NCBI RefSeq assembly: GCF_007483685.1
Contig: NZ_VMKN01000001.1
Location: forward strand, 2,719,549 to 2,783,548
Length of the DNA stretch: 64,000 nt
Reading direction: 5' to 3'
Origin: Litoribacter populi
GTDB taxonomy: Bacteria; Bacteroidota; Bacteroidia; Cytophagales; Cyclobacteriaceae
Under the pieces are notes generated by a model. That model saw only the letters and a list, made by a program, of their open reading frames with translations. It made no database searches and was not told the DNA's origin. Positions 1,099 through 55,323 of this stretch are shown here, in pieces (the stretch's first letter is position 1; every line of letters starts with the position of its first letter). The translations under genes and the position numbers were made by a program.

Positions 1099-1100
1099 AG

Positions 1101-3111: not shown

Positions 3112-3258
3112 ACTTAAGGGTTTACTTTTAAAAACAAAAATTGAAATTAGTAAAAAAATATGATTAATCAATTAAAAATTAGAACAATTACCACCACTAC
3201 ATTAATCCTCCCATAACCCCTCGTACGAATGTCTCCCCTTGTGCGAACGTCCGTTGTC

Positions 3259-3363
3259 CGTTGTGCGAACGTCTCCGACTTCGCACCCTCCTTATTCTCC
3301 TGCTGCAGTTTAATACCGCCTACTCCAAAAGTATCTGTTGTGCGAACGTCTCCGACTTCGCAC
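3259..3363 (+). repeat. Dispersed hairpin repeat, two copies (3259-3286, 3336-3363)
   Basis: Two near-perfect copies of the repeat with core TGTGCGAACGTCTCCGAC then TTCGCAC, about 50 bases apart, preceded at 3221-3250 by degenerate partial copies. They sit in the gap between the SemiSWEET gene and the VOC gene. Confidence 0.8.
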
Positions 3364-3411
3364 CCTTCTTATTCTCTATCTACAATTTAATTCCTTCTCA
3401 TCCCAAAGCAT

Positions 3412-3828: not shown

Positions 3829-3849
3829 ATTACTGTTGTTATTAATTCC

Positions 3850-3997
3850 CGTTGTGCGAACGTCTCCGACTTCGCACCCTGCAATTTAATTCCTCCGACT
3901 TCGCACGGCTTTCCGTTGTGCGAACGTCTCCGACTTCGCACCCTGCAGTTTAATTCCTCCGACTTCCTCCGTTGTGCGAATGTCTCTGACTTCGCAC
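3850..3997 (+). repeat. Dispersed hairpin repeat cluster, three full copies plus one partial
   Basis: Full copies lie at 3850-3877, 3914-3941 and 3970-3997 with a half copy around 3892-3906. Spacer text such as GCAGTTTAATTCCTCCGAC is also shared between copies and with 3303-3315, so the duplicated unit is longer than the hairpin itself. Open frames crossing this region repeatedly spell RCANVSDFA and are not real genes. Confidence 0.8.
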
Positions 3998-4111
3998 GGC
4001 TACCTCCCTTTGTTACGGTTTGCTGACCAGGACTCTGTAAGAAGATGCCAGCTGAGATCCCCACCCAATCCTTCCAGTCAATAGAACCCTGATTACCCGG
4101 TTAAAGTCGAG

Positions 4112-4540
4112 TCAGAATTTCCTTTTCTGAAATGGAATCCCTTCGCCTTCTTCACAATACTGCTTTAGGCTGTATAAAAAGAAACCCCAATTATAGTTAC
4201 ACCACCTATAAAAATCAGTAGTCTTTCCCCAGTGCTTATGGCTGAGTTTTACGGTGGTTTTACCATCTTCACCACTAAGATTAAACTCTACAGTGGTATC
4301 GACCCACTGAGGATCTGAATCTACACAATGCCAAATTAATTTTTCATCAGGCTCAAATTCAATTACTTTCATTATTGTAGCATACCCGTCTTCAAAATCA
4401 AATTCATTAAGAAAGTTTAGTTGAGGTTTTACTTTAAGCTTTTGTGTCCAGACTTCCGAAAGACCTTTTTGGGTTGTCAATGCTTCAAAAACTATTTCTC
4501 GGGGTGCATTTATATATTGCAACAATTCAATATGTGGCAT
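4112..4540 (-). CDS. SRPBCC/AHSA1-family protein
   Basis: The 142-residue protein begins MPHIELLQYINAPREIVFEALTTQKGLSEVW, the usual opening of the AHSA1/START-like fold, and ends in an amphipathic helix (FFLYSLKQYCEEGEG) that closes the hydrophobic cavity. Such proteins bind lipophilic ligands or act as Hsp90 co-chaperone-like modules; the ligand is not predictable. Its start overlaps the end of the DinB gene by 14 bases, so the two are co-translated. Confidence 0.8.
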   Translation of the reverse strand: MPHIELLQYINAPREIVFEALTTQKGLSEVWTQKLKVKPQLNFLNEFDFEDGYATIMKVIEFEPDEKLIWHCVDSDPQWVDTTVEFNLSGEDGKTTVKLSHKHWGKTTDFYRWCNYNWGFFLYSLKQYCEEGEGIPFQKRKF

Positions 4541-5192: not shown

Positions 5193-6278
5193 ATGCCACG
5201 CACTAAAGTTAACCAGAAATCCTTTGAAGGACAATGCTTCTATATCGGAATCGATGACCACTTAAGAAACTGGCTGGTCTCCATCTTCGGGGAGCTTTAT
5301 GAACACAAGACCATGAGCAGGGACAGAAATCCCGACCAGTTGGCCGATTACATGAATGCGAGCTTTCCGGGAGGGACATACAAAGCTGTTTATGAAGCGG
5401 GTTTCAGCGGATTCGGCACCTGTAGGAGGCTCAACGAACTTGGTATTGAATGTATGGTCCTCAATGCGGCCGATGTGCCGACGAGCCAAAAAGAAAGGCT
5501 TCAGAAAAACGATTCGGTCGATGCCAGGAAGCTGGCCAGAATGCTCCGTGGCGGTGAGCTTGAGGGCATCCATGTCCCAGATACCATTCTAGAGGCTGAC
5601 CGTACGCTGTGTCGGGTCCGGGATACTCTTGTCAAGGATATGACCCGGAACAAAAGCAGGGTAAAATCTATCCTCATGCAGTTTGGGGTAGAGATCCCTG
5701 CCCGCTTTTCGGCAGTGCAGACTAGGTCATGGTCAAAGGTTTATATGGAATGGGTTCTGGGGCTTGAAGAACTACATCCGAGTATTAGGCAGACTATAGC
5801 CGCCTTGGTGGAGAGCGGCATGGCGCTGAAAAAAAATATTCTGAATATAACCCGTCAGATACGCGAACTTGCCGAAAGTGACAGGTATCGGGATAATTGC
5901 GATAGATTAATAACCATACCCGGTGTGGGGCTGGTTACGGCTATGAACCTGCTGACCCAGCTGGGCGATATAGAGCGGTTCAAAACACTGGATGAGCTTT
6001 GCCATTATATCGGTATTGTGCCGAACACCAGGAGTTCCGGTGAAAAAACTGCCACCGGCAAGATAACCAGAAGAGGCAGGAAGAAAATTAAGATCTTGCT
6101 CATTGAGGCCTCTTGGGTAGCCGTAAGAAAGGATCCTGCCCTGATGGCAAAGTTTAACGAACTGAGCAAAAGGATGAATAAAAACAAGGCAATCATCAGG
6201 ATCGCCAAAAGCCTGCTCAACAGAATCCGCCACATGCTCCGCCATAAGACAGAGTATGTGACCGGTGTAACGGGTTAA
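5193..6278 (+). CDS. IS110-family transposase
   Basis: The 361-residue protein has both IS110 domains. The N-terminal RuvC-like DEDD domain shows YIGIDDH (D21), VYEAGFSG (E68) and KNDSVDARKLAR (D107, D110). The C-terminal Tnp_20 domain shows ITIPGVGLVTAMNLL, a helix-hairpin-helix-like segment, and the serine-containing stretch YIGIVPNTRSSGEK that carries the recombination nucleophile in this family. Length is normal and the frame is intact, so the copy may be active. IS110 enzymes insert site-specifically guided by a bridge RNA encoded in the element's non-coding end; the candidate here is downstream. Confidence 0.95.
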   Translation: MPRTKVNQKSFEGQCFYIGIDDHLRNWLVSIFGELYEHKTMSRDRNPDQLADYMNASFPGGTYKAVYEAGFSGFGTCRRLNELGIECMVLNAADVPTSQKERLQKNDSVDARKLARMLRGGELEGIHVPDTILEADRTLCRVRDTLVKDMTRNKSRVKSILMQFGVEIPARFSAVQTRSWSKVYMEWVLGLEELHPSIRQTIAALVESGMALKKNILNITRQIRELAESDRYRDNCDRLITIPGVGLVTAMNLLTQLGDIERFKTLDELCHYIGIVPNTRSSGEKTATGKITRRGRKKIKILLIEASWVAVRKDPALMAKFNELSKRMNKNKAIIRIAKSLLNRIRHMLRHKTEYVTGVTG

Positions 6279-32239: not shown

Positions 32240-34897
32240 ATGACTATGAACTTTATTTACAGAACACCAATGCTCAACTTTGATATTTTTGATACCAAGG
32301 AAGTGGGGTACAATTATCAGTACATTTTGGAAGCCATTAAAATATCCTCTCCCCACCTGTATGAGCAGATTAAGGATACACCCTACTCGCACCTCGATTA
32401 CAATCAACAAATCGCCGTGTTGAAATACCTCATTAGGGGTAAATACCGCGCCACTCCCTTCGGACTTTGGGCAGGGGTCGGCCTGGGGTTTTTCAGTGAT
32501 TTGCCTAGTCCTACCAAATACAAGCTTACCTTTCAAACCTTTGACCTCAAAGCCCAACATGTAAAGGGGAAATACCACTTGCCGGCCCAGACCTATCGGC
32601 AAACCGATCAGTTCACTTTTTGGAAAATGGATGAAGATAAGAACTGGAACCAAGTCACACTCGAGTCCAATGCCATTTTGGAAAAAATCTATAATCACTT
32701 TCACAGTAAGCCCGACCTCTCCTTTCCGAAGTTCAAAAGCTGGTTTTTGAATGTGGAAGATGGAGAGATCCGACAAATATGGGGAGAGATCATCAATTGC
32801 GGATTTCTAACAAACCAGTATCCGCCCAAACTTTCAAAAATCAACTCCGTCGTGTTAAATGACCCAAGGAGCGAATTCCCCAACGACTCACAGGACTACC
32901 CCATCCACATAACCAGCAGTAAGGAACCCTTTCAGCTGGAAAAAACGCATTACCGCAAACTTGAAAAGTTGAACAAGGAAATCGGAAACCTACTGCATAC
33001 CCAGGCTTCTGATTTTATTCGGGAACTGAAAAGCATTTTCATTGAAGAGCATGACGATAGGTTTGTACCCCTCCACCAGCTATTAAATCCCGGCAGCGCC
33101 ACAGCCCGCTTTTTCAAAAATCAGGTTTGGCTGTTTTCCAGGGAAAACACACCTCCCAACCCTATCAATTCCGCTATCCTGGCACACTCAGGGAGAAAAA
33201 CCATGAACCTCAAGACACTGGTGAAATCCCGAAAGGTATTGGAACAGCCCGCCACTTCCTACTTGTGTCGGATCACCGAAAGGGGCCTATTGATAGACCA
33301 TGTGGTGACCAACCGACCGGCTGCCACTTGGGCAAAAATATCTTTGGCTGTACCAAAGGCCTCTTTTCATGAAGATATCCAGCACTTCCTGGATTCCTCT
33401 ACCAATGTGCTCCATGCGGATTTTGAAATATGGGAAAGCGATCAGTCAAACCACATTGCCTGCCATAAAAATCTCTTACAACATACGATCAGGATCTTTA
33501 CCCCATCAAAATCCTCTTATGATATCGATTACAAATCCCTTTACCTTGGCTTAGTTAATGACAGATTTGTAATCTACTCGTCACATACCCAACAGGTGAT
33601 CCTGCCTTCGATCCAACATGCGTTAAACCCACAATACATTACTCACCCCATAAGCAGGCTGCTATATGAAGTTGCCTCTCAAGGCTCCCTATATCCCGTA
33701 TACGAAGATCTTATGCCTATTTCAGGAGCACCGGCTATCCCTCGGTTAACCTGGGGTGAGGTGATACTCAAGCCTGCCGCATGGTATGTAAGGACTGATG
33801 AGGGGGAATCCTGGACCTCCAAACGCTTTTTGGCAAAAACAAAAGAGCTCGAAATTCCCAGATACTGCTTGTACGGGGAGGATGATGAAAAAATGGTAAT
33901 AGACACCCACAACAGTGAGAGTGTAGAAGTCTTAATGGAACTTATAAATAACAAACCTTCAATTGTGCTGTCGGAATGCTTATGGATCGAAGACAGTCAG
34001 TATCCATCTTACCCACAACTATCCCTTTCAATTCAAAACATCGCTTACCAATCTCCTTATAAGCATGTTTTCTTCAATCCCAAAAAGCATGTGGACCGCA
34101 GCTGGATCTGCTATCACATTTATGTAGATCCACTGGAAGCGGAATTGTGGCTAACCGAAAAGATTGGCCCCTGGCTGGATCAAAATTTAAAATCCGACGC
34201 CATACATCAATGGTATTACCTGATTCATTTTGACAGCGCATTTCACATCCGGCTTCGCATTGGGCCTAACAGTATAGGGAATGATAGGGTCTCTTTTGAA
34301 AAGGAACTGTTGCACTTCCTGTCACAAGCTGACTATATCACTAGCTTTAAGAAAGCCACTTATTATCCTGAACTTGCCAAGTATGGCAATCGGGGCATAT
34401 TTTCATCCGAGGACTTGTTCAAGCTTGAATCCGTCATGGCTGTATATGGCAACGTGAACAGCCAGCTACCATACCTTCCCACACTGCTTCAGCCAGAACT
34501 CGAAAAGATCTCATTGATTGCCAATTTAGGTTTGGCCCTCCTGAAGCGGAGCGGGCACTTTAGAGCATGGCAGCAAGAAACTGAAAATGGCCTGATGAAG
34601 GACTTGAAAAACTCCCAGAAATCTAAATTCAAAAAAGTATATGAGGAGAGCTTGCGAAGTAAGAAAGTGTGTCACTCAGTCCACGACCAGGGCTTTGTGC
34701 AAAAATACATATCCTTCTTCCTGGAGCATCCCCTTCTATATGACAAAAACAACTTTGTACCGCTTTTCAACCACCATTTCCACATGATGATAAATAGATT
34801 TTTCCTGTCCCACCACAGCCACATCGAGCCCCTGGTATGGTACACCCTCTATAGAAAAGTGCTGGATTACCGCCACAGCCCCATCCCCACCCTGTGA
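32240..34897 (+). CDS. Full-length LanB-type lantibiotic dehydratase (orphan)
   Basis: The 885-residue protein matches class I lanthipeptide dehydratases. Its N-terminal glutamylation domain contains YLIRGKYRATPFGLWAGVGLG near residue 70 (LanB consensus R.TPFGL.AG) and continues to about 580. The C-terminal SpaB_C-like elimination domain begins near 615 with DRSWICYHIYVDPLEAELWL and has WYYLIHFDSAFHIRLRIG. Known LanBs use glutamyl-tRNA to dehydrate Ser/Thr in a precursor peptide. No LanC cyclase, protease, exporter or obvious precursor adjoins it, so substrate and product are unknown. The stop is followed at once by a terminator-like hairpin, so it is transcribed alone. Confidence 0.9.
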   Translation: MTMNFIYRTPMLNFDIFDTKEVGYNYQYILEAIKISSPHLYEQIKDTPYSHLDYNQQIAVLKYLIRGKYRATPFGLWAGVGLGFFSDLPSPTKYKLTFQTFDLKAQHVKGKYHLPAQTYRQTDQFTFWKMDEDKNWNQVTLESNAILEKIYNHFHSKPDLSFPKFKSWFLNVEDGEIRQIWGEIINCGFLTNQYPPKLSKINSVVLNDPRSEFPNDSQDYPIHITSSKEPFQLEKTHYRKLEKLNKEIGNLLHTQASDFIRELKSIFIEEHDDRFVPLHQLLNPGSATARFFKNQVWLFSRENTPPNPINSAILAHSGRKTMNLKTLVKSRKVLEQPATSYLCRITERGLLIDHVVTNRPAATWAKISLAVPKASFHEDIQHFLDSSTNVLHADFEIWESDQSNHIACHKNLLQHTIRIFTPSKSSYDIDYKSLYLGLVNDRFVIYSSHTQQVILPSIQHALNPQYITHPISRLLYEVASQGSLYPVYEDLMPISGAPAIPRLTWGEVILKPAAWYVRTDEGESWTSKRFLAKTKELEIPRYCLYGEDDEKMVIDTHNSESVEVLMELINNKPSIVLSECLWIEDSQYPSYPQLSLSIQNIAYQSPYKHVFFNPKKHVDRSWICYHIYVDPLEAELWLTEKIGPWLDQNLKSDAIHQWYYLIHFDSAFHIRLRIGPNSIGNDRVSFEKELLHFLSQADYITSFKKATYYPELAKYGNRGIFSSEDLFKLESVMAVYGNVNSQLPYLPTLLQPELEKISLIANLGLALLKRSGHFRAWQQETENGLMKDLKNSQKSKFKKVYEESLRSKKVCHSVHDQGFVQKYISFFLEHPLLYDKNNFVPLFNHHFHMMINRFFLSHHSHIEPLVWYTLYRKVLDYRHSPIPTL

Positions 34898-42123: not shown

Positions 42124-43488
42124 TTAATCTCTAATATTTTGCTCCATTGGATTCAAGTTCAGCTCATTCTGAGGAATGGGAAAAACATACCTATTGCTAT
42201 TGGGTTCTAAAATATACCCTTTTTCATTTACCGTTCTGCTAAGCCTACGTGCTGTGGAAGGATCCAGATTTAACCTCCTTAGATCCATCCAGTTAGTCCC
42301 TCTAAAAATCAAAGACTTACGCTTTTCTTTCAGGATCCATGCCAATCCATCTTCCATATCACCCGAGACCGACTCATGAGCTCCTACTTCAAACCTGTTT
42401 ACCATTATCTCATCCATAAGGTCCATCGCTTCTTCGGTTTTCGCGTTTCTATATTTAGCCTCGGCTCCAATAAAATAAACCTCGTCAAGACCTATCCCTC
42501 CAAAAAACCAAAATGTACCGGTATAACTCCCCCTAAAATTAAATCCGTCCGCCCTTTGGGTACTATACAGGCTTTTTCTTAAATCCCTATCATCATAAGC
42601 TTCGAAAATTTCCGGATGGATAAAGGTATTGGGGTTGGCTACATTAAAATCAATATTGACCTGTCTCGAATGCCAAATAACCTCTGAGTTATAAGGAGGA
42701 AAGGGATGGTTAACCGTAGGATTTAGCTGAGCATAATCCATCAGCTGATAAGCTGAAGAGCCGAGTACTAGGTCGGCATAGGCTTCCGCTTGCACGTAAT
42801 TCTGCATTGTCAAGTATATCCTTGCCAACAAAGCCTCAACAGCCTTACGGGACGGCCTTGTTTTCACAGCCTGCCATTCAGGCAGAAGCCCTTGGGCTTC
42901 TATCAAATCAGCCACTACATGCTCATATACCTTCTCCAAGGAGGCTCGTTGCTCAAAGGCAGAAATGTTGGTGTTTACTCTTAAGGGTACACCCAATGTT
43001 GATGAAGCCGTACTAGGGTCATATGCCTTGGCAAATATTTGCGCCAATTGAAAATGATTTTGCGCTCTGAAAAACAAGGCCATTCCTTTCAATGGTGCCA
43101 ATTCCTCCTGCGAATACCTTTCATGCTCCTCAAATTCAGTTACCTTCTCCAAGACAACATTGGCTATAAAAATAGCCCTGTATGGAATATTCCAATCCAC
43201 CGAAGGGGTACCTTCAAAAATGTCAGCATTCCAAATGTATCCATTAAGGGTAGTAGGGTTTCTAAAATTATTATACCCAATATCATTCATTACCATATCA
43301 TCGGAACTCAATATTCCAATGGCAGGAACCCTGTTCATTTCCTCTTCATTATCCAGCAAGGCCTGAAGGTCAGCTATAGAGTCTGGGATAAGCCTGGTTT
43401 TATCAGGCCTCTCATCCAAAAAACCCTCACATCCCATCAGCACTCCGACAGACAGGACGGTCATTATAAAGTTTATATGTTTTTTCAT
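42124..43488 (-). CDS. SusD/RagB-family outer-membrane lipoprotein
   Basis: The 454-residue protein has a lipoprotein signal (SVGVLMGCEGF, Cys near 20) followed by a SusD-type helical bundle: DERPDKTRLIPDSIADLQALLDN, LKGMALFFRAQNHFQLAQIFA, VEALLARIYLTMQNYVQAEAYADLVL, and the C-terminal RRLNLDPSTARRL, YVFPIPQNELNLNP. SusD proteins form the lid of the SusC barrel and capture the nutrient at the cell surface. It follows SusC on the same strand. Confidence 0.92.
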   Translation of the reverse strand: MKKHINFIMTVLSVGVLMGCEGFLDERPDKTRLIPDSIADLQALLDNEEEMNRVPAIGILSSDDMVMNDIGYNNFRNPTTLNGYIWNADIFEGTPSVDWNIPYRAIFIANVVLEKVTEFEEHERYSQEELAPLKGMALFFRAQNHFQLAQIFAKAYDPSTASSTLGVPLRVNTNISAFEQRASLEKVYEHVVADLIEAQGLLPEWQAVKTRPSRKAVEALLARIYLTMQNYVQAEAYADLVLGSSAYQLMDYAQLNPTVNHPFPPYNSEVIWHSRQVNIDFNVANPNTFIHPEIFEAYDDRDLRKSLYSTQRADGFNFRGSYTGTFWFFGGIGLDEVYFIGAEAKYRNAKTEEAMDLMDEIMVNRFEVGAHESVSGDMEDGLAWILKEKRKSLIFRGTNWMDLRRLNLDPSTARRLSRTVNEKGYILEPNSNRYVFPIPQNELNLNPMEQNIRD

Positions 43489-43643: not shown

Positions 43644-46600
43644 TTAGAAGTCCAGTCTTACACCAGCAGATACACTCCTCAATGGGCGCATGGTCCTAAA
43701 GTCCGGATCCAGGGGATCATCACTTGCCTTCCATAAAATCCCAAGATTATTGGCATAAATATATGCCTGAAGCCTGCTGAATTGTAAATTCATCCTCCCT
43801 ACCGGAAAATCGTAGGTGAGGTTAATATCCTGTAGGCGAATATGATCTCCTCGCTCAACCAGCATTTCTGAAAACCTGTATAAATTATCGCGATTGACAT
43901 TGGCGCCTGCAGGCAAAGACGGTACGTTGGTAATCAACTCATCCCCCGGTTGCTGCCAACGCTGAGCAAAATCCCCATGACCTCTTGCCCCAGTCAATAT
44001 TGGATTGAACAACACAGATTCTCTTCTATAAAAATATCCCAAACGATAACTGATGTTGACAGAAAGGGTGAATCCGCCGTAACTCAAATCGTTTCTCAAT
44101 GCGCCAAATACCGTCGGTCTCGCAGAACCATGATAAATCAGATCTTCCACTCTGCTATTATTGACTATCCCCACGAAGTTGTCACTAACCTCCCCATTGA
44201 GGTAACCTCTAGGATTCCCATTGTCGGGATCCAAGCCGGCCCATCGGTAACTGAATATGGAAAACAGCGGTCTCCCCTCCACCGGTGCTACTAATCCGGA
44301 AACTCCCTCCCCATTAGCCAATATATTGTTGACCGGAGGGTCCAAAAGGTATTCGTCTACAATTTCCCGATTGGTGCTCAGAAGCAAAGTGGAATTCCAT
44401 TTAATTCTCCCTTGCAGATTGCGCGAATTGAGTACCAAGTCCAATCCTTCAGTTTTGGTTTGGGCGGTATTGCCCCTAAACTGCGTGACACCAGAGGAGG
44501 GAGGCATCATGGCATCACCTATGAGATCCAAACCATCCTTCCAGTAATATTCCAGGTTTCCGCTTAATCTGCCTGTTCTGGACTCAAAGTCAATCCCCAT
44601 ATTCACAATCCTTATTCGCTCCCACCTCAATTCTGGGTTTGGTGGATTCATTATACGTCCATAGGGCATACCTGGATTGATGGAAGCACCACCACCGGCC
44701 AAATACAAAGCCGTAGTCTCCGCCGCCAGGGATTTGTCGACATTACCATTAAAACCAAAGGAAGAACGCAGTTTTAGATAAGGCATCCCTTCCCAGTTGT
44801 AAAAACCCTCATTACTGATCAGCCAGCCTGCACCAGCAGAGTATAAAGGTACCGCACGTTGGTTGGCATCCACTCCAAAGAGGTTGGACTGATCCCTTCG
44901 GGCACTCACCGTTAAGTCAAACCGTTTGTCGTAATTATAGGCAGCATTCGCATAGTAAGAATAAAACCTATCGACCAAATCGGACAACCCTCCCCTGAAT
45001 GGCACCGCCATCAACGACCCATTATTATAATACATGGGCAACCGGGTCAGAAAATCCATCGGAACAGAGGCTGCAAGATTGGGATTATAGCCATACAGTC
45101 TATTGGTATTGCCCTGAAGCTGATAATCCTTCAATTCTATACCCGCCAAAGCGTTAAATTCATGCCTCGAGCCAATTATCTTGTGGTACCGCAAGTTGCC
45201 TCTCACATTGTGTGTCTGCGCAATCTGATTTCCAACATCCAGTATACCCGTTCTCGGTATGGGAAATGATAGGTTTCCCTGTGGGTCCACCTGGGTATAT
45301 TGGTTGATCAGGTTTCTGGTAAAATAACTTTCATATTCAAAATGCTGCTCGGCCGAACTCCTGTTTGTCCAATATTGATACTGAACTTCTGCCGTCAGAT
45401 CAGGTAACACCTTATAGGACAATCCGGTATTTATCCGCAGATCATCCCCCCTGTTTTGCTGTGGATTCCGGTGTATTTCCTCCAAAGGAAAATATTCCCA
45501 ATTGAGTAAGCCATCCCGCTCCGCCTGGGTCACAAAACTCCTCCTGTAATCCCGCACCAAAGGCAGGGGATTGCCAGCGGCATCACTCATCATAGCATAG
45601 GCATAGGTGGGGTTGGCACTATTGAAATACACCTGCCCAATCCCATCATTACTCCTGTTGGAGGTTGTTTGGGTATAATAAACCGTAGACTGGATGTTCA
45701 AACGCCCATTCCACAGCCTCCAGTCATTCCTGGCCTGAAGGGAAACTCTGCTGTTCTCATTACCCACCAGATTTTCCCGATTCTGGTCATAGCCCACAGA
45801 AAATAAGTAGGAATGGTTTTCACTTCCCCCACGCACATTGGCGGAATACTGCTGCAAATGGCTTGGCCTATGGAAGTAACGGTCAAAATCCGACCGCACA
45901 TCATGTGCTGCCAGCTGGCCAAGTCTAGACTCCAGCTCTTGATCATTAAGCAGCCCGTCTCGGTTTTCAAAAAGAGCCTCCACACCCGGTGTCAGCGGCG
46001 GCCGATTGATGTTGTTAAGCTGATTGTTGTAATAGTTCCGTCCAAAAAGCTCTCTTTCCATTCCAATGACATCGGCAGAACTCATCACCGGTATATAAAA
46101 GGCCTCCGGACGTTCACCGAAAGTACTGTTTGCATTGATACTGACACGGGGCTGCTGCCCCTTCTTGCCGCTCTTGGTAGTGATGACTATCACTCCGTTA
46201 CCAGCCTGAGCTCCCCAGATGGACGCTGCCGCCGCATCCCTGAGCACCGTAATGCTTTCCACATCGTTGGGGTTGATATTCTGGATATCCCCATCATAGG
46301 GAAAATTGTCCACGATGATCAGGGGTTGGCTATTGGCAAACAAGGTACTTCTCCCCCTTATGTTTATCTGGTCATTAGGCCCTCCCCTTTGGTTGAAAAT
46401 CAGACCACTGGTCACATCTTCCAGCCTTTCCAAAATACCGGTACTCACCCTACGGTCCACTAGCTCCTGATCCACATGAACAAAAGAACCCGTGGCCCGC
46501 TCCTTCGGAAGCTGTTGGTACCCCGTACTCAATACCTCCACGGTCTCCAGACCGTAACTCTCCTGCTCCAGCACAAACAAGGGGATTCCCTCAAAGGGGA

Positions 46601-46865
46601 TACGGATATCTACTTCCTGGGCAACATAGCCCAGCATACTGAACTGTAGCCGATAGCTTCCCGGATCCAAGTTGATCCTAAACTTTCCCTCCCCGTCACT
46701 GACGGTTATCTGGGAAGTACCTTTGACCTTCACTACCGCTCCGGGCAGGGGAAGGCTGTCTTCTACCGCAATGATCCTGGCGGTCATGCGTTCTTGGGCA
46801 ATGGCCGGGGCTGGTGCCAGGTACATAGCAGCACAGCAAAACCCCATCAGTATAGATTTTTTCAT
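43644..46865 (-). CDS. SusC/RagA-family TonB-dependent outer-membrane transporter
   Basis: The start MKKSILMGFCCAAMY at 46865 is chosen because it gives a signal peptide ending APAIAQ. The 1073-residue product has a carboxypeptidase-regulatory-like domain (TARIIAVEDSLPLPGAVVKVKGT), a TonB-plug with NDQINIRGRSTLFANSQPLIIVDNFPYDGDIQNINPNDVESITVLRDAAAASIWGAQAGNGVIVITTKSG, and a 22-strand barrel. It imports a ligand bound by SusD using TonB energy. It overlaps or adjoins the TlpA gene (end 46895) with a 29-base gap. Confidence 0.95.
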   Translation of the reverse strand: MKKSILMGFCCAAMYLAPAPAIAQERMTARIIAVEDSLPLPGAVVKVKGTSQITVSDGEGKFRINLDPGSYRLQFSMLGYVAQEVDIRIPFEGIPLFVLEQESYGLETVEVLSTGYQQLPKERATGSFVHVDQELVDRRVSTGILERLEDVTSGLIFNQRGGPNDQINIRGRSTLFANSQPLIIVDNFPYDGDIQNINPNDVESITVLRDAAAASIWGAQAGNGVIVITTKSGKKGQQPRVSINANSTFGERPEAFYIPVMSSADVIGMERELFGRNYYNNQLNNINRPPLTPGVEALFENRDGLLNDQELESRLGQLAAHDVRSDFDRYFHRPSHLQQYSANVRGGSENHSYLFSVGYDQNRENLVGNENSRVSLQARNDWRLWNGRLNIQSTVYYTQTTSNRSNDGIGQVYFNSANPTYAYAMMSDAAGNPLPLVRDYRRSFVTQAERDGLLNWEYFPLEEIHRNPQQNRGDDLRINTGLSYKVLPDLTAEVQYQYWTNRSSAEQHFEYESYFTRNLINQYTQVDPQGNLSFPIPRTGILDVGNQIAQTHNVRGNLRYHKIIGSRHEFNALAGIELKDYQLQGNTNRLYGYNPNLAASVPMDFLTRLPMYYNNGSLMAVPFRGGLSDLVDRFYSYYANAAYNYDKRFDLTVSARRDQSNLFGVDANQRAVPLYSAGAGWLISNEGFYNWEGMPYLKLRSSFGFNGNVDKSLAAETTALYLAGGGASINPGMPYGRIMNPPNPELRWERIRIVNMGIDFESRTGRLSGNLEYYWKDGLDLIGDAMMPPSSGVTQFRGNTAQTKTEGLDLVLNSRNLQGRIKWNSTLLLSTNREIVDEYLLDPPVNNILANGEGVSGLVAPVEGRPLFSIFSYRWAGLDPDNGNPRGYLNGEVSDNFVGIVNNSRVEDLIYHGSARPTVFGALRNDLSYGGFTLSVNISYRLGYFYRRESVLFNPILTGARGHGDFAQRWQQPGDELITNVPSLPAGANVNRDNLYRFSEMLVERGDHIRLQDINLTYDFPVGRMNLQFSRLQAYIYANNLGILWKASDDPLDPDFRTMRPLRSVSAGVRLDF

Positions 46866-46894
46866 AAATTTGGTTGGATTGGTTGTAAATTTTA

Positions 46895-48532
46895 TCACTG
46901 GCCGGCACTGGGAGTGCCGTTTTTATTCAAGGCGCTTTCGATCACCTTACTGATCTCCGGGTAGCTGTACGGAATTCCAGAGAATTGATAGATCCTCCCC
47001 TCCCTGTCGAGTATCATCTTCCTTGGAAAACCAGAAATATTGTAATGCACAAAGAATGGATGCCCCTTTGCCTTCCCTTCAGAATGGAGGTTGATCATAT
47101 CTGGGGTACTGTAGCGCTCCAAGGCTACACTCTCCCGCCACATAGCTTCCGACTTGTCTGCCGAAATAGCCAAAATCTGAAAGTCATCCCTATCACCGTA
47201 AGCCTCCTGAAGGGGCTTGATGGTCTTTTCGAAAAACCCCAAACAGGCCCTGCAACCGGTAATGTAAAAATCCAAAAGGGTCACCTTGCCCTTGAGCCGG
47301 TCCAGATCAAATTTTTCTCCATGCTCATCCACAAAATCAAAATGCTGCAGGCTTCCACCTTCCTGTTTTAAGCTAAGCAGATTAAAAAGGTATCTCCTAA
47401 GATAGGGATCTTGAACCTCCCCCAAATATGCCTCCAGCTGATCCCCTGCTTCGACTACATATTCATATCGAGTGGAAAAATAGGCCACCATGGCTTTTTC
47501 CCGGAACCACGGAGGGTGGATTCGCCTTAGGGCTTCAAATTGGCTGATTCCCTCCGCACGTCGTAGGAATATGCTCCATTTGCCGAAGAGGTCAACCGGT
47601 CCAAAAGCTTCTGGATGCCACTCCTCTCCCAACATGGCCTCCATCTTTCCCTTTAAGTCTGATTCCATGATATCCTGGAGCCGATTGGTTTGGGCCGTAT
47701 CCTTCCTCAGCTCGGCCAATTTGTAGGCGCCATTGAATCGGTGAATGAAATCAGCATAATAATTTGATCTTACATTGTCCGAAAGGAGCCGCTTCAGGTT
47801 TGCGTCCAAACCGGACTGAGAGATGAAATCGAGTTTCTTGAGCAAAGCAGGATCATCAGCATGGGGCAGATCCTGCATGAGGTAGGCAGTTTCCTCTTCA
47901 CCAGGACGAAGAAACAGCATCCTAGGGGCATTCCTGGTGACCAGATCCCTATACCTTTCCACATACATTGGATCTTCGGTTATCTTACTGTGGTCATCAA
48001 TCACCAAGGTGGCTTGGCGGAAAGCCTTTTCCGTCCGATCCATCCATGCCAGCTGCTGCTGCAGCTCCATCCGTTCCACTGCATTCCCCTCGAAATAGAC
48101 CCCTCCAAATCGTAAATCCAGGTAAAGGATTAGGGTATCCCCCGGCAGTACAATAAACCTGTCGATAATTGGAAGGTCATTACCCAAGCCCACACTCAGG
48201 TATCCCAGGCTATCCATGTCGGGCAGGACATATTCGAATATGCGCTCTCTCCTTCCCCTGCCCTCCAAAATGGATCCCTCCATCACAGGCAATTCCACCG
48301 TCTGTACTCCTGGCGCATACCGGCTTTTATATGTATAAGTCTTAAAGAAGCTCAAAACAGGATTGTCGGGTTCATGGTCTGATCTTATCACGCCATGGAC
48401 CACCACCGGCGCCCCGCCGACCTTTTCGGCGGAGCTGTCAGGGTGAGCGGCAACTTCCTGCCCTACTACTATTTCCACTCTCCCCATTAGACATACCAGT
48501 CCCAGGAAGAAAAAGATCATTCTTTTTTTCAT
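46895..48532 (-). CDS. Secreted TlpA-type thioredoxin-fold protein
   Basis: The 545-residue protein has a signal peptide (residues 1-24, ending VVVGQ), a large N-terminal helical region of unknown role (about 30-390) and a C-terminal thioredoxin domain: VTLLDFYITGCRACLGF with CxxC at C427/C430, the cis-proline motif ISGFPRKMILD, and a WESVAL-like segment. It acts in the periplasm on disulfides. It is the first gene of the thioredoxin-SusC-SusD unit on the minus strand. Confidence 0.85.
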   Translation of the reverse strand: MKKRMIFFFLGLVCLMGRVEIVVGQEVAAHPDSSAEKVGGAPVVVHGVIRSDHEPDNPVLSFFKTYTYKSRYAPGVQTVELPVMEGSILEGRGRRERIFEYVLPDMDSLGYLSVGLGNDLPIIDRFIVLPGDTLILYLDLRFGGVYFEGNAVERMELQQQLAWMDRTEKAFRQATLVIDDHSKITEDPMYVERYRDLVTRNAPRMLFLRPGEEETAYLMQDLPHADDPALLKKLDFISQSGLDANLKRLLSDNVRSNYYADFIHRFNGAYKLAELRKDTAQTNRLQDIMESDLKGKMEAMLGEEWHPEAFGPVDLFGKWSIFLRRAEGISQFEALRRIHPPWFREKAMVAYFSTRYEYVVEAGDQLEAYLGEVQDPYLRRYLFNLLSLKQEGGSLQHFDFVDEHGEKFDLDRLKGKVTLLDFYITGCRACLGFFEKTIKPLQEAYGDRDDFQILAISADKSEAMWRESVALERYSTPDMINLHSEGKAKGHPFFVHYNISGFPRKMILDREGRIYQFSGIPYSYPEISKVIESALNKNGTPSAGQ

Positions 48533-48719: not shown

Positions 48720-49490
48720 TTAAACCTTAAGCCTTAAGCGGCGAAGCCAAATAAACCATAAACGGCGATGCCCCGTAACCGGCGAAGCCCATAAACCTAC
48801 TGCGTCTCCGGTGGATACCTATTCAAAGGCCTCACCTCTACCCGAACGTCCAGCTGATTCCTCATCCCCTCCTCCTTCAATATCACCCCTATCGCCTTGC
48901 ACAGCAATATTGCCTCCTGCTGTTCCCGGCTCATGGGCTTCGGCTTGGGGTCTGGTACATAGGTGCAGTTAGGTTTCCCCTTACTGAGCATCCCCACCTC
49001 CAGCCCCCTATCCCCCACCAGCAGCCACAGGATGCCATCGAATAGTTTCTTTATCTGTTTCATAGTTGAAGTGGTTTAAAGTTTACTTTTTCCCCTGCGG
49101 GGAAAGGTTAAAGTTTCTAGTTCAGGGTTCAGGGTTCAGGGTTCAGGCCTGGATCCAACCGTGAGCCGTTAACCCTTAACCGGCGAAGCCATATAAGCGG
49201 CGAAGCCCATAAACAGCGAAGCTCGTAAGCGGCGCAGCCCATAAACAGCGTAGCTACGTAAGCGGCGAAGCCAATAAACGGCGAAGCCAAAAAGGCATAC
49301 CTCTCCCCCGAAGAATTGATGCATTCTTTTTTTTCATAAGATCAAATGTTAAGAATTCACCACCGGAAGTTTAACCGTTAACCGGTAACGGTTAATTGTT
49401 CAGGGTTCAGAGTTCAGGTCTGGATCCAACCTTTAACCATTAACCCTTAACCGGCGAAGCCAAATAAACCGCGAAGCGTTCGCTTCGCTC
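48720..49490. repeat. GGCGAAGCC/GGCGCAGCC dispersed repeat text and GTTCAGG microsatellite
   Basis: Around 48725-48795, 49157-49290 and 49434-49490 short units such as AAGCGGCGAAGCCAAATAAA and CGGCGCAGCCCATAAACAG occur in loose tandem, interrupted by the small gene above. GTTCAGG is repeated at 49120-49150. The same units appear at 40575-40650. GGC-GAA-GCC can form a small hairpin. Confidence 0.7.
48797..49063 (-). CDS. Small hypothetical protein
   Basis: The 88-residue protein (MKQIKKLFDGILWLLVGDRG, then EQQEAILLCKAIGVILKEEGMRNQLDVRVEVRPLNR) is protein-like and starts with ATG, but no family is recognised. One weak hydrophobic segment near the N-terminus. It sits between repeat-rich gaps. 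Confidence 0.45.
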   Translation of the reverse strand: MKQIKKLFDGILWLLVGDRGLEVGMLSKGKPNCTYVPDPKPKPMSREQQEAILLCKAIGVILKEEGMRNQLDVRVEVRPLNRYPPETQ

Positions 49491-49707
49491 AGTCCGGTGA
49501 CTTAATCAGATTCTTTTGTAATTGCTTATTGGTTACTTTAGGATTTTGATAGAAGGAACTGGGGCAGCGACATTCGACTTGTTCCAAGAGGCCGAAGCGC
49601 AGGTGTAGAATTTTGTTTTTTTCAAGAAAAGCAATGCAGTGTCCCACACCATCCAAAACGGAAGTGTTTAATTTAATTCTGTGGGATTTTACGAAGCGCT
49701 CTTCCAT
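49489..49707 (-). CDS. Possible 72-residue protein, unrecognised
   Basis: An ATG-started frame (MEERFVKSHRIKLNTSVLDGV and so on, with ECRCPSSFYQNPKV) begins 18 bases from the edge of the structured element at 49725-49942. Composition is protein-like but nothing is recognised, and the 3' end runs into repeat text. Confidence 0.3.
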   Translation of the reverse strand: MEERFVKSHRIKLNTSVLDGVGHCIAFLEKNKILHLRFGLLEQVECRCPSSFYQNPKVTNKQLQKNLIKSPD

Positions 49708-49724
49708 AATCTAATTTTTCTGAA

Positions 49725-49942
49725 AGAGTCTTGTCAATGAAGGACCTCAAAAAATAATGAGGTGGGCTACTCCCGACACGTTGTAAGGTACGTAGGAGAA
49801 CCTGATTAAGACTATAACTAGCCTTAATCTGAAACGCAATGCCAAGAGTGAGCCCACCTCTATATTCACAAATATAGTGGATGGGCTTCTACTCTCAGTC
49901 CTGCGTTTCAAGAAATTTCCTACGTTTCTACAACAAGACTCT
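49725..49942 (+). ncRNA. Nested structured RNA candidate
   Basis: A 218-base element closed by AGAGTCTTGT (49725-49734) with ACAAGACTCT (49933-49942). Inside: hairpin ACCTCA/TGAGGT (49744-49763); ACGTAGGA (49790-49797) with TCCTACGT (49918-49925); hairpin GATTAAG/CTTAATC (49804-49829); GAAACGCA (49831-49838) with TGCGTTTC (49902-49909); AGAGT-AGCCCA (49845-49856) with TGGGCT-ACTCT (49882-49895); and CTATATT/AATATAG (49860-49877). All these stems nest without conflict. An alternative pairing GAGGTGGGCT (49759-49768) with AGCCCACCTC (49851-49860) competes. TAATTTTT at 49712-49719 is a near-consensus -7 element for the plus strand. A 6S-type RNA of Bacteroidota or a transposable-element RNA are possible. 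Strand uncertain. Confidence 0.5.
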
Positions 49943-49997
49943 GACTAGATGCCAATTAATTTTAATAACATCTGAAATACAATGCTAAAATAAATAC

Positions 49998-50040
49998 TTG
50001 TCCTCAAATAAACAACATAAATGTCGAAAAATGAGGACAA
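49998..50040. promoter_or_regulatory. Nine-base inverted repeat upstream of the XRE-like gene
   Basis: TTGTCCTCA (49998-50006) and TGAGGACAA (50032-50040) flank 25 A+T-rich bases, ending 21 bases before the start codon at 50062. It may be an operator for the encoded regulator, or with the following T-rich stretch a terminator of the upstream RNA. Confidence 0.4.
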
Positions 50041-50061
50041 ATTTTTCTTCCTCTTTGTTTT

Positions 50062-50601
50062 ATGAAAGATGGAAGAAATAAAATTGACACCTCGAGACTC
50101 GCCAGAAACCTCAAAAAATTGAGGCAAGAAGCCAATTTGACCATTTCAGGCGTTCATGCTGCTACTAGGATTTCCGAAGATCACCTTCGAAGGTTGGAAA
50201 AAATAGAAAACCAAATCTCTCCTAACTCTTCCACTATACAAGCTTTTTTGACTTTATACGATGTGAGCTATAACTCACTAACTATGAAGGAAAATGCTAA
50301 ATTAGGAGCGGCTCCCACTTTCCTGGATAAATTTAAAAAGAACAACATAACAACCAAAGCCTATTTCTTATCAAATAAATCAATCCCAAAGCTTTTAAGC
50401 GAAACCTTAAAAGAGCATCCCCAGATGAGAAAAGGCATGACGGTCTCAGAAATATTAACTTTATTCCCTAATGCTAGGCTTACAAGTAAACAAGTATCCA
50501 ATGCGCTAAAACAGCTAGTGAAAAAGAATTATTTATTAAGAGAAGATCCAGCCGGAACAAAATCTGTCTATATCTATAAAATCAATCCTTTCAAGGAATA
50601 G
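50062..50601 (+). CDS. XRE-like HTH protein with C-terminal winged-helix-like domain
   Basis: The 179-residue protein has an N-terminal helix-turn-helix of the XRE class (LARNLKKLRQEANLTISGVHAATRISEDHLRRLEKIEN, residues 12-50) and a C-terminal part with a winged-helix look (KGMTVSEILTLFPNARLTSKQVSNALKQLVKKNYLLREDP). It probably binds DNA, perhaps the inverted repeat just upstream. No partner gene or effector is evident, so its target is unknown. Confidence 0.7.
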   Translation: MKDGRNKIDTSRLARNLKKLRQEANLTISGVHAATRISEDHLRRLEKIENQISPNSSTIQAFLTLYDVSYNSLTMKENAKLGAAPTFLDKFKKNNITTKAYFLSNKSIPKLLSETLKEHPQMRKGMTVSEILTLFPNARLTSKQVSNALKQLVKKNYLLREDPAGTKSVYIYKINPFKE

Positions 50602-51575: not shown

Positions 51576-52310
51576 TTAGGTACTTTTGGGAAGTAAATCA
51601 AAAAGCAAATGGTGTATTGTAAATTCGGTATTCAGACGTAAATGCAGGCTGTCAAAAGTAAATGGATTTTCTTCTATTGACTTATCCTTCGTACTAATTA
51701 AATCGCCCTCCGGAGAAATAGGAAATTTATCACTTAACTTTTTCAGAATTGCAGTTTTTATGTTATTACTGTCGCCATCTATAATAAAACCAATCATTCC
51801 GCCAAAGGTTAGATTTTGAGCATACTTTCCATTGAAATAGCGGAGAACTCCACCATCGAAGATGTTTTCATTGTTAGGTTTTTTTTTATAAGTATTGTAG
51901 CAAACATATTTATTTACCAAATCTTTACTGCCATCCAAATTTTTACATTCAAAATAGAAATCCTGATTTTTCCAATATGTATTATGAATGGTAATATCAT
52001 AATTACCCTCCACATTTTCATCATTTGTTTCTTCTCCCTTTACAGAAAAATTTAAACCAAAATCTCTGTTTGCTTTCAATTTGAGACGTACAAATTTTGC
52101 GATTTCTCTTTCGGTTCGTGGATATTGCTTTTTCTTTTCTTCTTCAATTTTAAACTTTAATTCAGCACTATCATAGTTTTTATAAAAGTAAAGCAAATAA
52201 TAAAACACCCAATTTTTCCAAAACTCATCATCTAACGTCTTTAGTTGGCGAGTATCAAATGATAATGGAGCTGGTTTCTTAATCCTAATGTATTCTCTCT
52301 CCATTCTCAT
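51576..52310 (-). CDS. Probable restriction endonuclease subunit
   Basis: The 244-residue protein has a PD-(D/E)XK-like core: NYDITIHNTYWKNQDFYFECKNLDG supplies D105 and E121-x-K123 on adjacent strands. The N-terminal third is helical. It starts inside the 3' end of the Eco57I-type methylase gene (26-base overlap), so the two make a restriction-modification pair with separate cleavage subunit. No recognition site can be inferred. A few restriction endonucleases have this size; name not assigned. Confidence 0.7.
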   Translation of the reverse strand: MRMEREYIRIKKPAPLSFDTRQLKTLDDEFWKNWVFYYLLYFYKNYDSAELKFKIEEEKKKQYPRTEREIAKFVRLKLKANRDFGLNFSVKGEETNDENVEGNYDITIHNTYWKNQDFYFECKNLDGSKDLVNKYVCYNTYKKKPNNENIFDGGVLRYFNGKYAQNLTFGGMIGFIIDGDSNNIKTAILKKLSDKFPISPEGDLISTKDKSIEENPFTFDSLHLRLNTEFTIHHLLFDLLPKST

Positions 52311-55300
52311 TAGGTATTAAGTGTTTTAAAATATCATGTCCATCTTCAAAGGCTTTTGTTTCTGTCCAGTTTTTATTTATATCCTCTTTAATAATATATA
52401 CACAGTCCTTTCCAAATATTTTTTCCTGACTCGCTAAAAAGTTTGCATTAGGATTTTGCTCAAAAATCTCATTAAGTAAATAATTCTTTGTGTTAGCAAC
52501 TTTTGGGCTGTTAGAACCGTTATCAAAAGAAATTTTTACCACAATTAAATTGAAACCCGCTGGAGCTTCATCTATGGTTATAGGGCTTTCAAAGTAAAAC
52601 CGCACTATTTCTTTTAAAGTATTTTTATAGCTATCCAAAGCCTTTTTCTTTCTTCCAATTCTTGATTTAGGAAGAAAATAATCTTTAATTCTTTGCTTTT
52701 CCCAAAATGACAACTCGTATAAATCGAAAATCAGCTCATTTAGTTGGGGTTCCTTTTCTGTATATTCATACTTACCCTCAGATAAATGCTTACTTAAATC
52801 TGAAACTTTTGTTACCAGCTCGTTATCTAAATCTATAGGAACGGGTATTTTTTTTATGTCATCCATTCCAATTTTAGGGAATGAACTATCTATCCTCTTT
52901 TTTAAATGGATGTTGCTAAAGTAATTGATCAAGTCACTGTTTAAAATAGCGACAATTAAATGATAATAACTTTCGTTTTCTAATTTTAAAACATATAAGT
53001 CAAAATCAAAATAGATATATTTATCTAAATAAACAGCCTTTAGTGATTTGCCTATTCTACTCCAAACAATTCGTTGGCCTAGATATAATTCTTTATTTCT
53101 TGGACGGTGAAACATTGATATATCACTTCCTAAATAGGAGCTATAGGATTTTGTTTTAAATTTCTCAATATTACTCGGTTTGATAAAAGGAATAGGGAAA
53201 TCATTGGTTTGTTCCTGGCTTGAATACAGGCTTTTAAACGCTACATAATAATCATCTCTTTGTTTTTGTGTTAATGACTTCCATCTCTCTTTTTTTATAC
53301 CAAATTCTTTCTCCATCTCCTCAAACCCGACAAGTTGAATACCTCGATGAAGAAAGAAATCATCATTCTTTAGTATATATTCCTGTAACGAGTTTGAGTT
53401 AGAGAGTTTCTTTATTAATAGGTTATCATATTCATTTCCTACAAGAAAATCCCTCAACCTTATTTCCCTGTGTACAAGGTCACTTTGAGCAATTTCAATT
53501 GCTTTGTCCTCCTGAATTATAAGTAATTCAAAGGGTTTTTCTGAAAACAGCCCCAAATCCACAGGATAATAATCAATTATACTATCTTCAAGATTATTTG
53601 TGAAAATAATAGCCACAACGCTCTCTTTCGCCTTTTCAAATAATATCTTCTTTACCCTTGACAGCTCATAAATTTTTTCAATTCCATAATGAGAATAAAA
53701 ATACTCTTGAAAAACCTCCGAATAATCATTGTAGAAATTAGAACTGTTTGAAACAAATCCAAATCTTGTATTCTCCTTACTCCAATCTTTGATTTTCAAA
53801 AAAAAGCATTGAGATATTTGGGATTTGCCTACGATGTTCTTTGCAACTTTTTTAGAATCAGCAGAAATAGCAACCTGATAAGAATTTAAAAAAGAAATTT
53901 CATTTTGAAACTCCTCTGTATTTGATATTTCAAAAAATGGCGGATTTCCAACTATATAAGAAAACACCTTGTCTTCAAAAGGTTTATCAGATGTATTAAG
54001 TGTATTGGCGTGTTTTATATTCTGAAAAAATGAATATTCCGAAAACAAGTTGATTTTTTTGTTCTCTTTTAGTTCATTTGCTATAAATTCTTTTACTTTT
54101 TTCGGATCAATCCCATTAAATATCTGAAGTGAAAGAGAAAATAACGTGAACCGTTGGGCTGTTAATTCTTTTTCAACACCAAATATATTTTCAGATAAAA
54201 GTTGTATTCTGTACTTTATCTTTTCAATACTATCTTGTGGTTCTAAATTTTGTCTTTGTGATATTTCTAAAAGCCTTTGATAACCTGTAATCAGGAACAT
54301 TCCAGAACCACTCGACGGATCTAAAATCGAACCTATTTTATCTTCATTTATTACATCATCTACAATTAACTGTGCTAATTTCTTTGGAGTATAGTATATG
54401 CCATTTTCTTTCTGCTTTTCAGACAAAAACACTTCGTAAATGTAACTTATAAACTCAACAGGTAAAACATCAAACCTAAAATCAAACAACCTTAATTGAC
54501 CTGAAATTACGTTGTGATTAAAAGAGCTTGCTATCAGTATACGTACCTCCTTTGTCAAATATTTATCATCTATGGTTGGCTGGTCAAATAGTGCATTATT
54601 AAATAATTCGTGAATGATTTTATATAGCTTGTTGATGTTCGTATTAGAATTGTTTTCTAATAATTTTTCGTAATTAAGTTCATCGTTATTAAAATAATGA
54701 CTAAAAAAATAAGAGTTAATAATGTGATTGTCTTCCAAATACTTAATGTAAAGCGTTCTATCAATTAATGCCTGAACAACCTCATTTCTCTTATTGTCAT
54801 CATAAATTGATTTAATTAATAATTTGCTTAATTGATCTTTTAACTCCTTTAAAGTATAAACTAACTCTTTATCAATACCTTTATATTTGGCTTTGTCAAT
54901 AAACGAATGATAGTTAAGCCAAAATACTCCACTATCAAACTGCCAGTGTCTAATTTTTTCAATAGTATCTAAATCTTTTTTGGTAGTTGAAAAGACCTGT
55001 AAAACACTGTCGTTATTTGAAACTTTAGGGGAATATTTGGCATACAACATTCTTACTTCATCAGCTTCATTAGGATAATAGAAAATTATATCTGCATCGT
55101 TTTTATTCCAAACATATTTTCTAAACTGTTCGAGTTCTGTTGTTTCTAACGAAGAAGTAACAAGATAAAAAGAGGTATTGGTGTTATTTGGACTTTTATA
55201 AAAAAAAATCGAATTTTTAAGTTTTCGAGATAGAGTAGCTTCTTTCTCAATATCAATAACTTTTGGCTTCAAATCAACATTGAAGTCAAAACCTAAATCA

Positions 55301-55323
55301 GAAAAGAAATCTACGTAAGTCAT
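52285..55323 (-). CDS. Eco57I-like N6-adenine DNA methylase (restriction-modification)
   Basis: The 1012-residue protein has the N6-methylase core with motif X/pre-I YYTPKKLAQLIV (near 310), motif I DPSSGSGMFL (335-344) and catalytic motif IV GNPPFFE (NPPF at 460-463). It continues into a target-recognition-like region (SNIHLKKRIDSSFPKIGMDDIKKIPVP) typical of Eco57I/TaqI-like enzymes. The first 280 residues are a helical domain without a PD-(D/E)XK motif that I can see, and the cleavage function seems to lie in the following gene. It is A+T-rich compared with the left half, indicating transfer. Confidence 0.88.
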   Translation of the reverse strand: MTYVDFFSDLGFDFNVDLKPKVIDIEKEATLSRKLKNSIFFYKSPNNTNTSFYLVTSSLETTELEQFRKYVWNKNDADIIFYYPNEADEVRMLYAKYSPKVSNNDSVLQVFSTTKKDLDTIEKIRHWQFDSGVFWLNYHSFIDKAKYKGIDKELVYTLKELKDQLSKLLIKSIYDDNKRNEVVQALIDRTLYIKYLEDNHIINSYFFSHYFNNDELNYEKLLENNSNTNINKLYKIIHELFNNALFDQPTIDDKYLTKEVRILIASSFNHNVISGQLRLFDFRFDVLPVEFISYIYEVFLSEKQKENGIYYTPKKLAQLIVDDVINEDKIGSILDPSSGSGMFLITGYQRLLEISQRQNLEPQDSIEKIKYRIQLLSENIFGVEKELTAQRFTLFSLSLQIFNGIDPKKVKEFIANELKENKKINLFSEYSFFQNIKHANTLNTSDKPFEDKVFSYIVGNPPFFEISNTEEFQNEISFLNSYQVAISADSKKVAKNIVGKSQISQCFFLKIKDWSKENTRFGFVSNSSNFYNDYSEVFQEYFYSHYGIEKIYELSRVKKILFEKAKESVVAIIFTNNLEDSIIDYYPVDLGLFSEKPFELLIIQEDKAIEIAQSDLVHREIRLRDFLVGNEYDNLLIKKLSNSNSLQEYILKNDDFFLHRGIQLVGFEEMEKEFGIKKERWKSLTQKQRDDYYVAFKSLYSSQEQTNDFPIPFIKPSNIEKFKTKSYSSYLGSDISMFHRPRNKELYLGQRIVWSRIGKSLKAVYLDKYIYFDFDLYVLKLENESYYHLIVAILNSDLINYFSNIHLKKRIDSSFPKIGMDDIKKIPVPIDLDNELVTKVSDLSKHLSEGKYEYTEKEPQLNELIFDLYELSFWEKQRIKDYFLPKSRIGRKKKALDSYKNTLKEIVRFYFESPITIDEAPAGFNLIVVKISFDNGSNSPKVANTKNYLLNEIFEQNPNANFLASQEKIFGKDCVYIIKEDINKNWTETKAFEDGHDILKHLIPNENGERIH

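Follow-up and report, generated by a model that had tools for sequence, protein, structure and literature searches.

The minus strand of a 64,000-nucleotide stretch of the Litoribacter populi genome (the window) appears to encode a structured leader RNA, probably a transcription attenuator that acts in cis and is built like a riboswitch, beside the divergent gene of a probable HTH repressor. As read from sequence comparison, the RNA spans about 49978 to 49749 and reads away from the XRE gene at 50062; it belongs to a predicted RNA family that is widespread in Bacteroidota and has no match in Rfam searches. RNA polymerase would start near 49978, at a promoter probably repressed by the divergent HTH protein. 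A helix, P1, whose internal loop (AAA/CC) and AAUUUC junction are conserved, encloses a long hairpin, P2. The 3' tail of the RNA can invade P2 by pairing with its 3' arm over about 20 pairs, and the resulting helix ends at a U-run. With P1 and P2 formed, polymerase would read through into the downstream operon (in the window thioredoxin-like, SusC and SusD); with P2 opened, transcription would stop. The balance would be set by a putative input, be it a ligand, a protein or an RNA, which would likely bind at the conserved loops.

Attention had been drawn to 218 nt at 49725-49942 by an inspection of the letters without database searches (the sequence-only reading), which proposed a structured RNA with paired ends, a competing stem and folding far above chance. 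The last of these is borne out on both strands, with z-scores of -9.25 (plus) and -8.17 (minus), fold energies for the two strands of -86.3 and -93.0 kcal/mol, and not one of 200 dinucleotide shuffles per strand folding as well. The ends do pair, AGAGTCTTGT (49725-49734) being complementary to ACAAGACTCT (49933-49942), and the AGAGTC outer stem is a feature of the window's own group, while the family core consists of P1, P2 and the tail. The features of the RNA and its upstream side are as follows.

49725 to 49942, minus strand: region flagged by the sequence-only reading; contains the core, the tail, the U-run and the group-specific outer stem P0
49933-49942 with 49725-49734, minus strand: outer stem P0, specific to its own group
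49928 to 49934, minus strand: P1a 5' strand GTTGTAG; partner TTACAAC at 49780-49786
49925 to 49927, minus strand: AAA of the P1 internal loop, conserved and unpaired; faces TACC at 49787-49790
49918 to 49924, minus strand: P1b 5' strand CGTAGGA; partner TCCTACG at 49791-49797
49912 to 49917, minus strand: conserved junction AATTTC; first A in 47/48, UUU in 48/48, 47/47 and 44/47
49830 to 49910, minus strand: P2, long hairpin; 88.3% of cells paired in its apical part (48 sequences)
49840 to 49861, minus strand: P2 3' arm, common to P2 and the alternative helix
49804 to 49829, minus strand: P3, small variable hairpin, missing from many relatives by eye
49758 to 49779, minus strand: 3' tail GTGTCGGGAGTAGCCCACCTCA, complementary to the P2 3' arm
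49749 to 49757, minus strand: U-rich stretch following the alternative helix, possibly the end of a terminator
49985 to 49992, minus strand: -7-like element TATTTTAG in the flank conserved in relatives; one-position departure from TAnnTTTG
49998 to 50040, no strand assigned: inverted repeat, TTGTCCTCA (49998-50006) and TGAGGACAA (50032-50040), from sequence
50062 to 50601, plus strand: XRE/Cro-CI-type HTH regulator gene, 179 aa (Pfam HTH_31, E 5.4e-6), divergent from the RNA

Relatives were sought in several ways. BLAST with the DNA of the element found four other genomes among 295 of the host family, plus two matches (L012 and L013) dismissed as chance, located within coding frames. The neighbouring HTH protein occurs in seven other genomes among 390, and the RNA adjoins it divergently in all seven. 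A first model, R1, has members in 5/390 genomes of the host's order, with diverged copies in three of the five. A covariance model, R2, was then built from 17 diverse members: R1 finds, IMG/VR contigs, seven Bacteroidales plasmid records and one phage-collection contig. Among 392 sampled Bacteroidota genomes R2 detected 43 places, spread over 28 genomes and 15 of 178 genera. Its scan of the host family gave 40 places (26/295 genomes, 15/84 genera), three of them in the host genome, which has one close copy plus two diverged ones. A genome may hold up to five copies, at separate loci. The whole-genome searches covered Bacteroidota, and the R1 and R2 genome counts are lower bounds because filters in large scans miss weak members.

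Viral and plasmid records added further members. Six IMG/VR viral contigs have an exact 17-mer; two (L040 and L044) match the model at E 8e-5, L041 gives a cut-off match at E 0.59 and the other three give none. A degenerate pattern listed 24 further viral contigs, of which L053 and L057 are supported by an exact partner strand. Queries taken from the window gave no DNA or protein match among plasmids and phages; the Bacteroidales relatives surfaced there only with L040 as query.

The comparisons below use 60 sequences: 40 R2 places, two further places, L040, L053, L057, L069-L076, L024-L029 and the window. Left out were one place at a contig end (G1033:C33), the Litoribacter ruber C1 copy, whose core is that of the window, and L044, which is the same as L040. 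Filtering by shared 8-mers gave a non-redundant set of 48. The label 'Bacteroidales-type', given by sequence resemblance, applies to 13 of the 60 and 10 of the 48; L138, from the same family as four of these members, is counted outside the subgroup. A held-out set comprises 33 host-family places absent from all models and earlier tests, of which 22 remain once near-copies within this set alone are removed; some of the 22 belong to genera already represented among the first 48.

The Rfam search suggested by the sequence-only reading, 6S models included, gave no credible match: none for the window at the gathering score, none for twenty R2 loci at E 0.1, and, with the threshold for 49400-50100 relaxed to E 5, a single snoRNA match (E 3) attributable to chance. 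That reading had offered a Bacteroidota 6S-type RNA as one identity, and length and strong folding are indeed what the two have in common. 6S RNA is a rod with a central bubble and, to our knowledge, should be near-universal; the present family is patchily distributed, occurs in several copies per genome and has a branched P1/P2/P3 fold with a strand-exchange tail. We give a 6S identity almost no credence.

The secondary structure is well supported by the pattern of substitutions. In the model-fitted alignment of the 48 members, which leans toward the model, standard pairs fill 92.5% of 1094 cells (slid controls at most 43.3%) and double-change cells number 275, against 86 in shuffles. A MAFFT alignment of 17 members gives 90.3% of 390 cells paired (slid controls at most 44.9%) and 61 double-change cells against 22.5. 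Two of five covariation measures are weak: the number of pairs with a double change among the 48 (18 against 15.4, reached by 17/500 shuffles) and the number of pair types among the 17 (35 against 32.7, reached by 100/500). Pair types among the 48 (58 against 51.5) were reached by 2/500 shuffles, and pairs with a double change among the 17 (13 against 9.7) by 11/500. P1 and the P2 tip covary, as the sequence-only reading had asked of homologues; in the 48 sequences double changes fall at 7/7 pairs of P1a (94.6% of cells paired) and 6/7 of P1b (95.8%).

Between these helices lie conserved unpaired residues: AAA on the 5' side of P1b and A and UUU on its 3' side, GG on the 5' side of P1b' and CC on its 3' side. 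The three A residues of the P1 internal loop are kept in 42/46, 48/48 and 47/47 sequences, and the facing CC in 37/48 and 48/48. The family therefore has what is looked for in a riboswitch domain, namely conservation, covariation and unpaired positions that are invariant. Fold, conservation in relatives and covariation together lend strong support to a structured RNA. A conserved leader peptide was considered and rejected, the ATG of the Bacteroidales-type 5' hairpin not being retained elsewhere, by eye.

The RNA is placed on the minus strand because of its conserved flank, the balance of G-U and A-C cells and the order of the genes downstream, which together rule out an RNA from the plus strand. 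The HTH gene, the spacer and the adjoining RNA are conserved, and conservation fades beyond the far side of the RNA. Read as minus-strand pairs, G-U cells outnumber A-C cells by 27 to 2 in eight sequences and by 102 to 19 in the 48. The same trend is seen with L. ruber, a close relative of the host placed in Cyclobacteriaceae: the spacer (126/126) and RNA core (156/156) are identical and the tail nearly so (54/55), at 95.0% identity for the HTH gene and 94.1% for a 72-aa frame at 49489-49707. The latter, considered as a possible small protein encoded after the RNA, has five synonymous and eight non-synonymous codon differences between the two species and, small as these numbers are, gives no sign of coding.

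The sequence-only reading had the RNA begin at a plus-side -7 element; it is the opposite flank, toward the divergent XRE gene, that is better conserved in relatives, and it is from the -7-like element there that a start near 49978 is predicted. TAnnTTTG occurs upstream of 33/48 members, against a shuffle mean of 4.6 and maximum of 11, and of only 10/22 held-out members, a count made without shuffle control. The inverted repeat noted ahead of the XRE-like gene is present; its left half is conserved in relatives, its right half less so, and it is likely the operator of the HTH protein, which would repress the RNA promoter. A divergent ORF lies within 300 nt upstream at 34/60 places, and the 34 proteins include matches to Pfam HTH_3 (17) and HTH_19 (16), with Fur, Crp-type, ATPase and transposase proteins among the others. 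In the held-out set such an ORF is present at 31/33 places, and HTH_3 is found in 23/31 proteins (E 0.01). Beside the HTH gene in the window is a restriction-modification-like pair (51576-55323, minus strand), consisting of a 1012-aa protein with TaqI_C and N6_Mtase and a 244-aa partner that matched no significant Pfam family. Upstream of the RNA at one other locus (L109), frames repeat the words PYMCGDEP and FPTCVGMNR, resembling a translated CRISPR array.

The competing stem of the sequence-only reading is real and proves to be a key feature: it extends to about 20 pairs and is present across the family. In 48/48 members the P2 3' arm has a second possible partner in the 3' tail, with 15-23 pairs (mean 18.9), and this pairing excludes P2. 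Cognate tails and arms pair better than swapped ones, at a mean of -25.5 against -17.8 kcal/mol, with none of 5000 permutations as good; the swapped duplexes pair too because the members are related. With the 5' arm as control the comparison is flat (-12.4 against -12.9 kcal/mol). The window's own helix, at -35.6 kcal/mol, ranks first of 48 in both swap directions. The held-out 22 behave alike, with -26.9 against -19.9 kcal/mol for the 3' arm (0/5000 permutations as good) and -13.6 against -13.7 kcal/mol for the 5' arm. An expression platform with exclusive pairing, as in riboswitches, is thereby seen at the sequence level only.

The tail helix ends at a U-run and therefore resembles an intrinsic terminator; by eye, its G+C-rich end adjoins the U-run as in such terminators. 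At least five U within 8 nt after the helix are found in 35/38 members outside the Bacteroidales-type subgroup, the window included (background 12.7%), in 2/10 within it (background 10.9%) and in 17/22 held-out members (background 12.3%). Mean U content of these 8 nt is 5.84 against 2.67 for the 38 and 3.6 against 2.5 for the 10. A plain test for TTTT (35/48, shuffle mean 30.3, maximum 39) is not significant. A terminator-like helix, a U-run and a same-strand gene downstream are thus found together, except that the Bacteroidales-type subgroup lacks the U-run. The alternative helix is unusual for an intrinsic terminator in that it crosses P1 and spans a large loop, and a local tail hairpin seen by eye in some members also speaks against a simple terminator. 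In pseudoknot-free folds the P1/P2 state averages -55.9 kcal/mol and the terminator state -40.6, and in none of the 48 members does the latter come within 5 kcal of the former. P1/P2 is favoured by about 15 kcal/mol, and termination would therefore need a trigger, or kinetics, outside the folding model.

The stability of P1/P2 would also suit an antiterminator or protein-binding leader that carries polymerase across extended stretches of untranslated or foreign DNA, in which case pairing of the tail would belong to the fold and would not make a terminator; put-like and anti-Rho elements are classes of antiterminator. The long stretches without clear genes that follow in the host family, the varied mobile cargo elsewhere and the Bacteroidales-type subgroup without a U-run are all compatible with this. 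However, exclusivity with P2 and, outside that subgroup, the U-run are needed by an attenuator and not by an antiterminator, and we regard this alternative as quite improbable.

The attenuator reading also draws on the genes downstream, which in the window are the following.

46895 to 48532, minus strand: thioredoxin/TlpA-like gene, first clear gene downstream (Thioredoxin_8, E 1.9e-8)
43644 to 46898, minus strand: SusC-like TonB-dependent receptor gene (Plug, E 8.8e-14)
42124 to 43488, minus strand: SusD-like gene (NCBIfam SusD, E 2.7e-6, far under the curated cut-off; position as in relatives, by eye)

Taking ORFs as mechanical frames rather than gene calls, the first downstream ORF of at least 100 aa is co-oriented with the RNA at 55/59 places, and at 31/32 in the held-out set. 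Protein sets were drawn from 57 first downstream, 51 second downstream and 34 upstream divergent ORFs. Among the first 25 of the 54 families listed for the first downstream genes are Thioredoxin_8 (9), TonB Plug (8), response regulators (5) and sigma-70 region 2 (3), with DarT, beta-lactamase, the GmrSD N-domain, FecR and others found singly among the families listed; Plug (12) and SusD (8) appear among the second genes. Held-out downstream proteins, of which 54/60 were used (those left out being L168, the second protein each of L170, L169 and L171, and both of L174), gave 21 Plug and 18 Thioredoxin_8. The usual order in the host family is HTH, RNA, thioredoxin-like, SusC, SusD. In the window the link of the RNA to the SusC/SusD operon rests on synteny, because 1.25 kb without a clear gene separate it from the thioredoxin-like gene.

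Some sequences in and near such gaps deserve mention. At 49100-49480, between RNA and operon, lie low-complexity repeats resembling gttcagg and cggcgaagcc (by eye). Alike frames of 88-89 aa occur downstream of different RNA copies, at 48797-49063 of the window (minus strand, MKQIKKLFDGILWLLVGDRG) and at 2072-2341 of L035 (plus strand, MTSIKKLLDGIIWLLVGDRQ); the former had no Pfam match and the latter no NCBIfam match. Another stretch, in frame GITAVDRLYPLKPK, is common to the downstream sides of two different copies (L037 and L018) and may be coding or a DNA repeat. Some 15 kb from the RNA the window also encodes a LanB-like protein (32240-34897, plus strand) that matches the thiopeptide-type bacteriocin biosynthesis domain TIGR03891 at E 1.7e-17. 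Possibly the SusC/SusD/thioredoxin operon is part of a peptide system.

Distance to the next gene bears on whether the RNA might instead be an independent small RNA (about 230 nt), ending at the U-run and acting in trans or released from a leader, with the tail helix as its terminator or a tertiary contact. It would have its own promoter and U-run, its sequence is nearly invariant between two species, and in the host and its HTH-type relatives the next large gene is 0.5 to 1.25 kb away. Against this, a same-strand ORF comes next at nearly all places in both sets and is only 46-88 nt away in 9/13 Bacteroidales-type copies, and genomes hold several copies at separate loci. We consider a free-standing small RNA unlikely.

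Several Bacteroidales relatives lie in mobilizable elements. In L040 and L072 the RNA is directly behind a Mob_Pre relaxase gene, and in L073 two frames behind a MobA/VirD2-type relaxase; for L071 and L075 the upstream frames have no match in Pfam. The cargo after the RNA is hxsDBCA in L040, blaMUN-1 in L072 and a DUF4433 gene in L071. The L040 element (887-4287, the same in L044) is mobilizable, and its hxsDBCA cargo is an operon of the His-Xaa-Ser peptide type. The window itself contains an IS110-family transposase at 5193-6278 on the plus strand (Transposase_20, E 8.3e-23; DEDD_Tnp_IS110, E 1.5e-13).

Such contexts recall the suggestion of a transposable-element RNA in the sequence-only reading, which stands in so far as some relatives travel inside mobilizable elements and fails as a MITE: multiple near-identical, repeat-bounded copies are absent from the host genome. 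The inverted repeats, which might have been the ends of a known MITE, are RNA helices with covarying partners. More broadly, the sequence could be a DNA-level element, whether MITE, transposon end or recombination site for the exchange of cargo. Its ends are inverted repeats, two copies sit between relaxase gene and cargo, and in nine Bacteroidales-type sequences similarity fades right past the tail (by eye). But the single close copy in the host genome, the excess of G-U over A-C cells across the 48 sequences, the promoter motif and the gene order maintained through the family all speak against it, and make an element acting as DNA very improbable.

Known leaders offer the closest parallels to the attenuator that we favour. 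Riboswitch and attenuator leaders work by terminator-antiterminator exchange, and share with this RNA a position in the 5' leader, a closed domain whose loops contain conserved nucleotides, and one strand that enters two exclusive helices, with a U-run after the second. In this RNA, by contrast, the two helices share the 3' arm of P2, the inner hairpin, so that P1 is crossed by the terminator-like helix; the downstream genes are very varied, and the Rfam searches gave no match. T-box leaders likewise have exclusive terminator and antiterminator helices, and some members of the present family have a GGGUGG-like stretch; unlike in T-boxes, no specifier stem is seen and no amino-acid genes are among the downstream Pfam families listed, and Rfam searches of the window and family loci gave no T-box match. 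The Flavo-1 motif, in the available text of its description, is, like this RNA, a structured motif without clear function; it belongs to Flavobacteriaceae, and its matches fall equally in sense or antisense of transcribed regions (PMC9723704); neither the window stretch nor 20 family loci matched Flavo-1 in Rfam. DonS is described, in the portion of the source available, as antisense and divergent to susC homologues in Bacteroides PULs (PMC7366714). DonS-type RNAs would share with ours the control of susC-type operons proposed here, whereas the window RNA lies in sense, upstream of its operon. The accessible text of the literature, including PMC8040213, PMC9723704, PMC7366714 and PMC10994844, contains no description of this RNA; supplementary tables may number it.

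A bolder proposal, which we offer tentatively as a possibility, is that the family constitutes a new class of Bacteroidota riboswitch, in which the P1 loop and junction would sense a common cellular signal and strand exchange would gate accessory uptake operons of the outer membrane and mobile cargo, defence and resistance genes included. If true, it would be an orphan riboswitch candidate whose near-invariant nucleotides lend themselves to screening, and a possible ON/OFF part for the engineering of Bacteroides. Bacteroidota dominate the human gut and are common in soils and waters. An RNA without Rfam match would then control a visible share of their accessory genome, which would explain the off/on control of newly arrived cargo and of spare SusC/SusD systems.
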